A stretch of 64,000 bases of DNA from Thermoplasmatota archaeon (GTDB taxonomy: Archaea > Thermoplasmatota > Thermoplasmata > UBA10834), in contig JAHIRF010000005.1 of NCBI GenBank assembly GCA_018818785.1, positions 339,513 to 403,512 on the forward strand, read 5' to 3'. The translations under genes and the position numbers were made by a program. This document shows positions 39,501-52,936 of this stretch, one piece after another (the stretch's first letter is position 1; the number at the start of each line of letters is the position of its first letter). The notes under the pieces were generated by a model, which saw only the letters and a program-made list of their open reading frames with translations, was not told the origin of the DNA and searched no databases.

Positions 39501-40757
39501 GTGGGGGATATGCCCATAGCCAGATCCTCCCCCTTGATGCTCCACAGAGCGGTCGTGTTCCACATACATGGGGAACTCCCATTTGAGGCCAGGATGCTCA
39601 TGGAGGATTTCCGCCTGGCCGTCAACTCTGCTATCAGAGCCGGCTTGCATGCGAAGGTAACCTCCAGGAACGCCCTGACGAAGCTGGCGTACAAGGACTT
39701 CAGGATAGAGCACCCGAACATGTATGCTCAGCACCTGGTCTCCTCGTTCGAGGTCGCGGGTTCGGTGCTGAAGAACCTACGAAGGCGTTGGGGAAAGGGT
39801 CCGATTCATCGCATTCCATACGTGCGTCGACTGATGATGAAGGCGGAGAACCAGGCATACAAACTCGACCGGGAGAATGGTGTGGTCGACCTTCCGATAC
39901 GGGCTGGATGTCATGTGAAGCTGAGACTCGTCCTGAGCGATTACCATCGCATCTTTCTGAACGACAAATCCCTCTCCCTCGGTTCACTGACACTCCTACC
40001 TGACAGGGTCATAATAGCCTTCAGGAAGAGTGCACCTAGACCGTACACTCCAGAGACGGCCCTGTCGCTCGATACCAATGAAAGGAGCTTGGACGGCGTG
40101 TTCCTGAGCAAAGGGGGGAGTACGCCGGTTCAAGCAGCATTTCCTGATGTCGCCGTGATCCAGGCACGGCATCACAATCGGCGGAAGCGCCTTCAGAAGA
40201 CGAAAGCGCACGATCGACGGACATCGAGGCGGTTGTGCAACAAAGAGGGGAGGAGGGAACGCTGTCGAATCGAGTACCGTATGCACCAAGTGGCCAACGC
40301 AGTGCTCAGCTTCGCGGAGGAGCACAGGGCGGCGGTCGTGCTAGAGGACCTGAATGGTATGATTGGTCGGAAGCGCGGAAAGTCGTTCAACAGACGATTG
40401 AGTTCATGGCCTCGGAGGAAACTGCACAACATCATCGAGTACAAGGCGGCCTGGAATGGCGTGCCAGTCATCAAGGCCGACCCATACAACAGCAGCAGGA
40501 GGTGCCCGATATGTGGGAGGATAAAACATTCCCGAATGGGCGCCGAGTTCGATTGTGAGTGCGGTTGGCGTGCGGATAGGCATGTCAATGCCGGCATAAA
40601 CCTGTTGCAGACAGCCTTCCCGGAAGGGATGGCAGGGGGCTTACGGTTCAGCCCCGGCGCGTTCCAGCATGACGTTATGATGATCCTCTACGACCCAGAG
40701 ATGGGCGCACGGTCGGAGCCGAATGGAACGAGTCAATCGATGGGGCGGTCATTATGA
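39501..40757 (+). CDS. tnpB: RNA-guided nuclease TnpB (IS200/IS605 family accessory protein)
   Basis: 418 residues, GTG 39501 (ATG 39510 in frame). TnpB proteins are RNA-guided DNA nucleases (ancestors of Cas12) that use an omega RNA from the 3' end of the element. RuvC parts: Asp191 in 'ALSLDTNERSLDGV', Glu282 in 'AVVLEDLNGMIG', and a zinc finger with CPIC (about 340) and CEC (about 355). In the third RuvC motif the usual D-x-N-A is 'RADRHVNAGINLLQ', with His361 at the canonical Asp place and Asp359 two residues earlier. Cleavage activity is therefore uncertain. The C-terminus ends in 'ARSEPNGTS', common in archaeal TnpB of this group. No tnpA. Confidence 0.9.
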   Translation: MGDMPIARSSPLMLHRAVVFHIHGELPFEARMLMEDFRLAVNSAIRAGLHAKVTSRNALTKLAYKDFRIEHPNMYAQHLVSSFEVAGSVLKNLRRRWGKGPIHRIPYVRRLMMKAENQAYKLDRENGVVDLPIRAGCHVKLRLVLSDYHRIFLNDKSLSLGSLTLLPDRVIIAFRKSAPRPYTPETALSLDTNERSLDGVFLSKGGSTPVQAAFPDVAVIQARHHNRRKRLQKTKAHDRRTSRRLCNKEGRRERCRIEYRMHQVANAVLSFAEEHRAAVVLEDLNGMIGRKRGKSFNRRLSSWPRRKLHNIIEYKAAWNGVPVIKADPYNSSRRCPICGRIKHSRMGAEFDCECGWRADRHVNAGINLLQTAFPEGMAGGLRFSPGAFQHDVMMILYDPEMGARSEPNGTSQSMGRSL

Positions 40758-49317: not shown

Positions 49318-49890
49318 TCAATGGACTTTCCTGATGAGCCAAAAGACGGCTTCCATGAAATTCCTGGCGACGAAATCCGGTTTGACCGAGGCGCTGTCGA
49401 CCTCCGGATCTTGCGCGGACATCCCAGGTTCCGGGACCAGGATGCTCTTTGCCCCTATCTCGAGCGCCACCTCTATGTCCGCGATCCTGTCCCCGATGAT
49501 GACGGACCTCTTCAAATCGATCCGATGCTTCTCAGAACCCTCGAGGAGCATCTGGGATGTTGGCTTGTGCCCATTGTCTCCGCCGTTCTCTGGGGTGGGG
49601 ATGTGGGGGCAATATAAGATGTCCCTTATCTTCACGCCGTTCTGGGACAGTATCTCGAGGATGCGGTCGTGTATCTCACCCTGCTCATCCTCGGTGAACT
49701 GTGACCTGCCATTATCCGATTGAGTTGTGATTATGAAGACTGGCAGGCCTGTATGGTTCAGTCTCTTGAGCCCGTCCAGAACGGTCGGGATGAATTCAGG
49801 ATCTCTATTCCCGTCCTGGTCGAGCCTAGCAAAACACATCGTACCGTCACGGTCAACGAAGACCGCGGGCCCATTGCCCTCATCCATCAT
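49318..49890 (-). CDS. HAD-family phosphatase, GmhB-like (histidinol-phosphatase type)
   Basis: 190 residues; ATG 49890 with a box A at 49914-49923 predicting a leaderless transcript. HAD motifs: 'AVFVDRDGTMCF' (DxDGT), 'LPVFIITTQSDNGR' (motif II T), the Zn-site region 'ILYCPHIPTPENGGDNGHKP' and 'SVIIGDRIADIEVALEIGAKS' (motif IV). GmhB acts on heptose 1,7-bisphosphate and is common in sugar-nucleotide clusters. The zinc loop is not the canonical CxH-x-CxC form and the substrate is not certain. A dead relative's 3' end is at 50075-50180. Confidence 0.8.
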   Translation of the reverse strand: MMDEGNGPAVFVDRDGTMCFARLDQDGNRDPEFIPTVLDGLKRLNHTGLPVFIITTQSDNGRSQFTEDEQGEIHDRILEILSQNGVKIRDILYCPHIPTPENGGDNGHKPTSQMLLEGSEKHRIDLKRSVIIGDRIADIEVALEIGAKSILVPEPGMSAQDPEVDSASVKPDFVARNFMEAVFWLIRKVH

Positions 49891-50074
49891 AGCATCTAAC
49901 TGATGCTGGTAGGGTTATTTAAGGAATGCTGGTTTGTATACATTATCCGTAATTTGCATAGGAACCCACTTTTTGGCTGTCCATATGTAAATCGGACATG
50001 ATTTGCCTTTACAAATGGTCCATTTCTTACGTTATCAAGCGTTCATCTGCCGAAATGAACGTAGTGCTAGTTCC

Positions 50075-50180
50075 TTAGAAGCCAAAGGACTGCTTCGATG
50101 AATGTCTTCGTTCCGAAGCTCCGGCTTCTCAGAAGATGCTTTTCAATGCCATGCTATCGACTTGACATCTGACATTATTG
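50075..50180 (-). pseudogene. Remnant of a second HAD phosphatase 3' end
   Basis: On the minus strand the last codons read TKTFIEAVLWLLRN and stop at TAG, equivalent to the intact gene's 'NFMEAVFWLIRKVH' end. Just before this, KPE matches KPD, but 19 bases instead of 18 separate the two segments, a one-base insertion. Similarity fades upstream (around 'gatgtcaagtcgata'). It has no start and is followed on the same strand by the rmlB remnant upstream. Confidence 0.7.
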
Positions 50181-50204
50181 ATTACATTGCCAGGTCGGAT
50201 GGTC

Positions 50205-50375
50205 ATAGGTTCATTAGCGGTTCCCACCATGGTTTGTTGTCTAGATACCATTCGACTGTCTCGCGCAAGCCATCATCGAACTTGAACTTCGGGCTCCAAA
50301 TCATCCTTTCTATTCTTTCCCAATCCACACGTGTTGAGTACGAATTGCATCATCACAAATTGTCTGGGTTCTAGA
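50205..50375 (-). pseudogene. Remnant of a second rmlB 3' end
   Basis: The minus strand ends with 'DGLRETVEWYLDNKPWW' then EPLMNL and stop TGA, matching the C-terminus of the intact RmlB (51986-52936). The core 50216-50298 is identical to 51996-52078 at 82 of 83 bases. Further upstream the match drops to roughly 60 percent: 'WERIERMIWSPKFKFD' against 'WERIKEMGWSPKFKFD', then a frame disturbance near 'GHDFRYSL'. The rest of the gene is gone. Confidence 0.85.
50216..50298. repeat. 83-bp direct repeat, copy 1 (second copy 51996-52078)
   Basis: 82 of 83 bases identical to the 3' end of rmlB; the single difference is G at 50232 against A at 52012. The two copies flank the dehydrogenase gene in the same orientation, 1780 bases apart. 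Confidence 0.9.
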
Positions 50376-50520
50376 ATCCGAGAGAATAGAACGCCCATTT
50401 TTCGAGACTAGTCCAATTTCAAATTTCAGTCTATGCAATTCCAACGAATGGACGTTCGGATTGATTCTAGCATGGTCCTCTCTGAACGATATTTCAGCCG
50501 ACAAGTCGAGTATGGATGTG

Positions 50521-50530
50521 TTTTTATACT
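50521..50530 (+). promoter_or_regulatory. Box-A promoter of the nucleotide-sugar dehydrogenase
   Basis: 'tttttatact', about 25-30 bases before the expected transcript start near 50550. It lies after the first in-frame ATG (50516), so that ATG cannot be used from this promoter. Confidence 0.45.
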
Positions 50531-50593
50531 ATTGGCTACCGTGCATTCGCAAGCCTAAGTGTGCAAGAAACGCCCCTCGAGGACGTGAATGGA

Positions 50594-51934
50594 ATGGTCA
50601 AGAATAGTCATCTCTTGGAGACGAAATCTAGGATTGATTCGGGTGATGCGAAGATAGGGATCATCGGTCTCGGATATGTCGGCCTGCCACTGGCTGTTGC
50701 TTTTTGCGAGAAATACGTTGTTTTCGGATACGATTCAGACGAGGACAAGTGCAAGATGCTCACGAAAGGGAAGTCATACATTGATGACATTCCCGATAGT
50801 TCAATCAAGAACTTGATTGGAAAGAGACTGAAGGTCATCAGTCGCGAGTCCAAGTTGAAGGAGTGCGATGCAGTCATCATCTGCGTACCGACCCCTCTGG
50901 ATGTTCGTGGGATTCCTGACCTCTCGTACATAGCACATTCAGCAGACATCATAAGGAGAGTTGCAGGAAAGGGAATGCTCGTGGTACTTGAGAGTACCAG
51001 TTACCCCGGCACTACAGAGGAATACTTGGGCCATGCGATTAAGGGTGTGGGATTGGTTCCCGGTGTGGACGTCGCACTGGCATTCTCACCAGAGAGGGTC
51101 GATCCTGGTAACAAGAAGTTTGGTATCAAGAACACTCCCAAGGTAGTGGGCGGAGTGAACGAAGAATCCACAGAGCTGGCGGCATCGTTGTATGGGTCGA
51201 TAGTTGAGGCCGGTGTTGTCAAGGTCAGGGATTGCAAGACTGCAGAGGCGACGAAGATCGTTGAGAACATCTTCCGTGGCGTGAACATTGCGCTGATAAA
51301 CGAGCTCGCTCTGATATTCGAGAAGATGGGGATAGACACGTGGGAGGTCGTCCGGGCAGCGTCGACGAAGCCATTTGCGTTCATGCCACACTATCCGGGA
51401 CCGGGGGTCGGCGGTCACTGCATCCCGCTCGATCCGCTCTATCTGTCTTACAAGGCGAAGCAATACGGCATAGTCCCACGTTTCATCGAGCTCAGTCGTG
51501 AAGTGAACGAGTTCATGAAGAATCACACGATCAATCTCGTGATGGCCGCTATGGATGAAGCTGGCATGGAACCTCTAGATGCGACTGTAGCTGTAATGGG
51601 CATTGCATACAAGAAGAACATTTCAGACACGAGGGAATCGCCAGCCGCTGAGATCATAGAGGAACTCTCGAAACGTGTTGGAAAGGTTCTCGTACACGAT
51701 CCTCTGGCCAAGAACATTCACACTCATCGCGGGGATTTCAAAACATCCACGATGAAGACCATCATGGGCGATGCGGACTGTCTGGTGTTCGTTGCTGACC
51801 ATGATGAGTATATTGTTCAATTCCCCGGAGCCTTCAAAGGGTCGAAGGCGAAGGTGGTCATCGACACCAGAAATATGTTCGATGCTGAGATCCTGAGGCG
51901 GATGGGTATCAAATACAGATGCATCGGGAAATGA
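50594..51934 (+). CDS. wecC: UDP-N-acetyl-D-mannosamine/glucose-type nucleotide sugar dehydrogenase
   Basis: 446 residues from ATG 50594 (frame open from 50516; the promoter at 50521-50530 argues for the later start, GTG 50585 is also possible with GAGG upstream). Two-step NAD-dependent oxidation of a UDP-hexose to a uronic acid. Motifs: 'KIGIIGLGYVGLPLAVAF' (Rossmann), 'VIICVPTPLD', 'LVVLESTSYPGTTEE', 'FSPERVDPGN', the catalytic Cys in 'HYPGPGVGGHCIPLDPLYL' and 'MGIAYKKNISDTRESPA'. With two wecB genes in the region, UDP-ManNAcA is the likely product, but a UDP-GalNAc/GlcNAc 6-dehydrogenase is not excluded. It lies between the two rmlB-derived repeats. Confidence 0.85.
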   Translation: MVKNSHLLETKSRIDSGDAKIGIIGLGYVGLPLAVAFCEKYVVFGYDSDEDKCKMLTKGKSYIDDIPDSSIKNLIGKRLKVISRESKLKECDAVIICVPTPLDVRGIPDLSYIAHSADIIRRVAGKGMLVVLESTSYPGTTEEYLGHAIKGVGLVPGVDVALAFSPERVDPGNKKFGIKNTPKVVGGVNEESTELAASLYGSIVEAGVVKVRDCKTAEATKIVENIFRGVNIALINELALIFEKMGIDTWEVVRAASTKPFAFMPHYPGPGVGGHCIPLDPLYLSYKAKQYGIVPRFIELSREVNEFMKNHTINLVMAAMDEAGMEPLDATVAVMGIAYKKNISDTRESPAAEIIEELSKRVGKVLVHDPLAKNIHTHRGDFKTSTMKTIMGDADCLVFVADHDEYIVQFPGAFKGSKAKVVIDTRNMFDAEILRRMGIKYRCIGK

Positions 51935-51985: not shown

Positions 51986-52936
51986 CTATTGGATCAGCGG
52001 TTCCCACCATGATTTGTTGTCTAGATACCATTCGACTGTCTCGCGCAAGCCATCATCGAACTTGAACTTCGGGCTCCAGCCCATCTCCTTGATCCTCTCC
52101 CATGTGAGCGAGTATCTGAAGTCATGACCTGGGCGGTCCGTGACATATGTTATGAGGCTCTCTGGCTTGTTCATGTACTTGAGGATCATCTTGGCGACCT
52201 CTATGTTGGGGACCTCGTTGCTGGAGCCGATGTTGACGACATCGCCTGCCTTTCCTTTCTGAAGAACGACATCTATCGCCCTGCAGTTGTCCTCTACATG
52301 CAGCCAATCCCGGACATTCAGCCCCTTCCCGTAGATGGGTAGAGGTTGATCGTTCAGGGCTTTGATGATCAAGACTGGTATGAGCTTCTCGGGGTATTGG
52401 AACGGTCCGTAGTTGTTGGATGAGCGTGTGACGACCACGTTCATGCCATAGGTCCTGACATAGGATCGTGCGAGGAGTTCTCCGCCGGCCTTGCTTGCGG
52501 AATATGGTGATGATGGGTCCAGGTTGTCTAATTCAGAGAACGAGCCGGATACCGTGGAGCCATAGACCTCGTCCGTTGATATCTGGACGAACCTCTTGAT
52601 GTCCCTGCGTCTAGCCTCTTCCAGGAGGGTGAATACGCCGAGGACATCGGTCCTTACGAAGTCCTCAGGGGATGTTATGCTCCTGTCTACGTGGCTCTCA
52701 GCTGCGAAATTGACTATCTGGTCGCAATCCTTCATCGCTTGCTCGACGACCTTCTTGTCGCATATGTCTCCCTTGACGAACTCTATGCGGTCCTTGATCT
52801 CCTCCAGGTTCTCCAACCTGCCTGCATATGTGAGCTTGTCGAGGACGACTATCTTCTTGTCGGGGTGCTCTTTGAGCATGTGTCTAACGAAGTTGCAGCC
52901 GATGAACCCGGCTCCGCCTGTTATGAGTATCTTCAT
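51986..52936 (-). CDS. rmlB: dTDP-glucose 4,6-dehydratase
   Basis: 316 residues. Second step of dTDP-rhamnose synthesis. 'ILITGGAGFIGCNFVRHML', 'VVLDKLTYAGRLENL', 'FVKGDICD', 'IVNFAAESHVDRSITSP', 'FVQISTDEVYGS', 'DPSSPYSASKAGGELLARSYV' (YxxxK), 'VTRSSNNYGPFQYPEKL' and 'VEDNCRAIDVVL' are diagnostic for RmlB. The C-terminal 83 bases are duplicated at 50216-50298. It follows rmlC with a 6-base gap. The codon bias and GC of this block are slightly lower than the gmd block. Confidence 0.95.
   Translation of the reverse strand: MKILITGGAGFIGCNFVRHMLKEHPDKKIVVLDKLTYAGRLENLEEIKDRIEFVKGDICDKKVVEQAMKDCDQIVNFAAESHVDRSITSPEDFVRTDVLGVFTLLEEARRRDIKRFVQISTDEVYGSTVSGSFSELDNLDPSSPYSASKAGGELLARSYVRTYGMNVVVTRSSNNYGPFQYPEKLIPVLIIKALNDQPLPIYGKGLNVRDWLHVEDNCRAIDVVLQKGKAGDVVNIGSSNEVPNIEVAKMILKYMNKPESLITYVTDRPGHDFRYSLTWERIKEMGWSPKFKFDDGLRETVEWYLDNKSWWEPLIQ

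Follow-up and report, generated by a model that had tools for sequence, protein, structure and literature searches.

How did the dead 3' ends of two sugar genes come to lie side by side within a nucleotide-sugar cluster, and do they preserve an older gene order? The locus is part of a 64,000-nucleotide stretch (the window) of a 1.97 Mb archaeal genome assembled in 12 contigs, whose nearest rmlB relatives are Thermoplasmata/Euryarchaeota metagenome-assembled genomes (MAGs). The cluster occupies 40–61 kb of the window and includes gmd, fcl, a HAD phosphatase gene, a wecC-like dehydrogenase gene, rmlB, rmlC, rmlD, rmlA and pseB, as well as others. The live GmhB-like HAD-IIIA phosphatase gene lies on the minus strand at 49318–49890 with its start codon at 49890, the wecC-like nucleotide-sugar dehydrogenase gene on the plus strand at 50516–51934, and live rmlB, encoding dTDP-glucose 4,6-dehydratase and scoring above the TIGR01181 cut-off, on the minus strand at 51986–52936, where it is convergent with wecC across 51 nt. 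Between the live HAD gene and wecC is a non-coding gap with 42–49% G+C compared to the window average of 55%, and both dead tails fall within it on the minus strand; no Rfam match was found in 49800–50700. A preliminary description had regarded these tails as the fossil of an ancestral rmlB–HAD order into which a new block, including the dehydrogenase, was inserted or exchanged by recombination.

That both tails are real is borne out by comparisons with shuffled sequence, which each of them exceeds. The rmlB remnant (50212–50328, minus strand) corresponds to RmlB codons of about 277–315 in frame (279–315 by frameshift-aware alignment), with weak homology that may reach as far as ~50375, and its alignment score of 172 is far above the highest shuffled score, 39; it can be aligned to RmlB at the protein level and is truncated, as would be expected of a pseudogene fragment, and appears to have no evident function. 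Together with the live 3' end it forms a direct repeat (50213–50322 and 51993–52102) with a spacing of 1780 bp. The earlier placement of live rmlB 1.8 kb to the right and of the live HAD gene 0.2 kb to the left is correct. The reported identity of 82 of 83 bases is also correct for 50216–50298 against 51996–52078 of the live gene, noting that this was counted by eye from the position map and that the shifted span 50213–50295 gives 81/83.

What the preliminary description had missed is that this identity is confined to a patch. Mismatches between the remnant and live rmlB number 10 in the 27 nt upstream but only two in the 83 nt of 50213–50295 (Fisher p = 8e-6 for that step), and 30-nt stretches farther out on either side of the repeat have 22 mismatches each. 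When the rmlB ends of nine relatives were compared over the same tract, most had 51–62 matches in ~72–82 aligned nucleotides, or about 70% (G007 was lower), which makes the match within this genome a recent one. As even the best relative, G017, reaches only 62/82 (~76%) and both flanks are sharply diverged, the tract has the character of a recent recombination or conversion patch and not of a uniformly decaying copy. We read the patch as a recent exchange between the two rmlB copies of this genome, with the rest of the rmlB tail apparently older or derived from elsewhere. Matches to rmlB in viral contigs were remote (34–52% identity).

The second tail (50073–50142, minus strand) is what remains of a GmhB-type HAD-IIIA phosphatase gene, its final ~23 codons, and reads KASSEKPE[+1]..TKTFIEAVLWLLRN*, including the one-base insertion noted before. 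It had been placed immediately downstream of the rmlB tail; it is indeed downstream and in the same orientation, but across a gap of ~70 nt. Its single-frame scores are higher than those of all 300 dinucleotide shuffles and its frameshift-aware score of 59 exceeds the maximum of 42 from 100 shuffles, so that a C-terminal sequence above chance is combined with a broken frame. The case for this remnant is made at the protein level, as the match to the live HAD gene using nucleotides only is weak (47 compared to 42). It does not closely copy the live HAD gene; the GmhB sequences of relatives fit it at least as well. Nor is it copied from other sequence in the genome. Given that only ~23 codons are left, the tails may have been brought together by a deletion, with the join between them as its junction. 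In most of the g2 relatives which have the gene, gmhB closes an hddA–gmhA–gmhB set (from gene order and Pfam), and in G008 this set directly follows gmd–fcl, the slot taken by the live HAD gene in the window. No gmhA or hddA homologues were found in the source genome, and the live HAD gene therefore looks orphaned; tblastn searches using gmhA, hddA and GmhB of relatives gave no gmhA or hddA remnant in the stretch that holds the two tails.

If the tails were left by the vertical decay of an ancestral rmlB–HAD operon with no special exchange, relatives should retain HAD directly after rmlB. Our survey covered 300 genomes of the class, 92 of which had rmlB at the threshold used, and among the HAD matches listed this order was seen in 0 of the 92; nor was HAD found in any of 80 further rmlB loci. 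Among the matches listed, HAD and rmlB occur within 10 kb on one contig only in this genome, in G004, where HAD is upstream of rmlB and 4 kb apart, and in G024, where the two are 8 kb apart. The same-genus genomes G001 and G002 have an unrelated gene after rmlB (a homologue of the one in G002 is found at 3.9–4.5 kb of the window), and gene order near rmlB varies among the relatives examined. With none of the relatives surveyed having rmlB and then HAD, the ancestral order put forward in the preliminary description is unsupported. The shared orientation and ~70 nt spacing of the tails are what decay of an operon would leave, but the uneven density of mismatches and the missing adjacency in both surveys make this explanation improbable.

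The part of the earlier proposal in which recombination inserted or exchanged the dehydrogenase block fares better, as the dead tails were most likely left by recombination and the block lies exactly between two copies of the rmlB end in direct orientation. Relatives provide further evidence. The wecC orthologues of G015 (67% identity) and G018 (66%), which belong to a sister genus, each have an rmlB tail convergent with them at the 3' end. The clear case is G018, where the tail covers RmlB codons 224–315 with stops and a frameshift and lies 36 nt from wecC; stumps of gmhA and hddA are found upstream of it. It is probable that G015 also carries such a tail, and we note that this is the weaker case, as the stump alone scores 49, below the shuffle maximum of 52, and is recognised by alignment with G018. 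Judged by these alignments, rmlB tails, heptose genes and wecC come together at breakpoints in two of the family's genera. We also observed that the G018 region (L175, G018:C197, 1303–2098) consists of a broken hddA C-terminus, a gmhA N-terminus and the rmlB C-terminus facing wecC, and that in G015 (L174, G015:C19, 1–247) an rmlA fragment without a start lies beside the stretch resembling an rmlB tail that adjoins the 3' end of wecC, which may be another breakpoint or a contig artefact (the contigs of the relatives are short MAG pieces).

We favour, with moderate confidence, the explanation that a variable surface-glycan cluster was scarred here by recombination, the wecC segment having entered by crossover at the 3' end of rmlB; the arrangement of the repeats supports insertion or exchange of the wecC-like block at this end. 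The incoming DNA would have carried a diverged rmlB 3' tail facing wecC, the order present in G018 with adjoining gmhA and hddA stumps, and homologous recombination at the resident rmlB 3' end, by a single crossover or insertion-duplication, would have rebuilt a complete rmlB next to wecC. A second rmlB tail would have been left beyond wecC and fused to the former downstream DNA, namely the live HAD gene and the GmhB stump, with the GmhB gene having already been reduced to that stump by deletion. That a crossover took place, when it did and in which direction are inferences; the pattern of diverged, identical and again diverged sequence is as expected where diverged homologues have crossed over or undergone conversion. 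A genome with the pre-insertion order was not seen among the family members compared, which are represented by short MAG contigs, and there is no further short direct repeat, nor any inverted repeat of at least 14 nt, near the junctions.

A substantial, though tentative, alternative is that the arrangement with rmlB facing wecC is old, and that an older, independent stump upstream of wecC was recently overwritten by live rmlB over 83 nt through local gene conversion. The two sharp borders of the patch are explained as well by this as by a crossover, and the pairing of an rmlB tail with wecC in another genus would suggest that the order is old. The live rmlB 3' end also appears native: we had considered whether it might be foreign, but compared with relatives it is not unusually diverged relative to the gene body, and as it looks no more diverged than expected, a donor origin for that end is not visible. 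However, local conversion needs a stump of the same orientation to have arisen separately next to the 5' end of wecC and is silent on why the wecC block is bounded by repeats; it accounts for the patch only, whereas a crossover insertion in the rmlB end accounts jointly for three features, namely repeat, patch and diverged flanks. Site-specific integration would make the wecC block a small integrated element and the 83-nt tract its attachment site in the 3' end of a gene. This would fit the direct repeats of a gene 3' end on both sides of the block and the intact end of the live gene, but there is no integrase ORF in the 1.8 kb between the repeats and rmlB homology runs past the tract on the element side instead of being limited to an att core, and we consider this explanation very improbable. 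An assembly duplication might be suspected in a 12-contig assembly, but is very improbable as the copies differ, the remnant has unique sequence on both sides, and the HAD stump has no source elsewhere in the genome from which it could have been duplicated.

The favoured crossover scar has parallels in other glycan clusters. Those of Salmonella O antigens include wzy remnants, recombinant junctions and recombination within rml genes (PMC3715488), and here too truncated stumps and junctions mark past glycan-gene exchange with rml genes as the sites of recombination; unlike Salmonella, this is an archaeon, the rmlB and gmhB tails lie beside a dehydrogenase gene, and we noted neither an insertion-sequence remnant nor a transposase at the junction. 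Replacement flexible genomic islands, in which glycan islands are exchanged via homologous recombination in Archaea as well (PMC4033161), similarly involve surface-glycan clusters swapped through homologous ends, but there whole clusters are exchanged, whereas the block here is shorter than 2 kb. Haloferax glycosylation clusters, in the part of the account we draw on (PMC5867893), are likewise archaeal and variable, with recombination occurring inside genes; they belong to another lineage and involve other genes, and no such stumps are described in that part. As comparable remnants and exchange are documented in Salmonella O antigens and archaeal islands, we judge the scar most likely to be an ordinary but well-preserved one, with a similar form in two related genomes. 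A bolder proposal, which we think unlikely, is that the rmlB tail is a recurrent exchange handle: small blocks of sugar genes carrying the 3' tail of rmlB would travel from one archaeal glycan cluster to another through recombination at rmlB, in a homology-driven, cassette-like manner.

These comparisons localise a recent exchange within the glycan cluster of an uncultured archaeon and show that rmlB 3' ends recur next to wecC breakpoints in more than one genus, so that strain comparison could test for recombination at this lineage's conserved sugar genes. Finally, we note that a TnpB-type gene is located upstream of the cluster at 39501–40757 of the window, and that an 85%-identical copy (L177, 10176–11390) lies ~68 kb leftward on the same contig.
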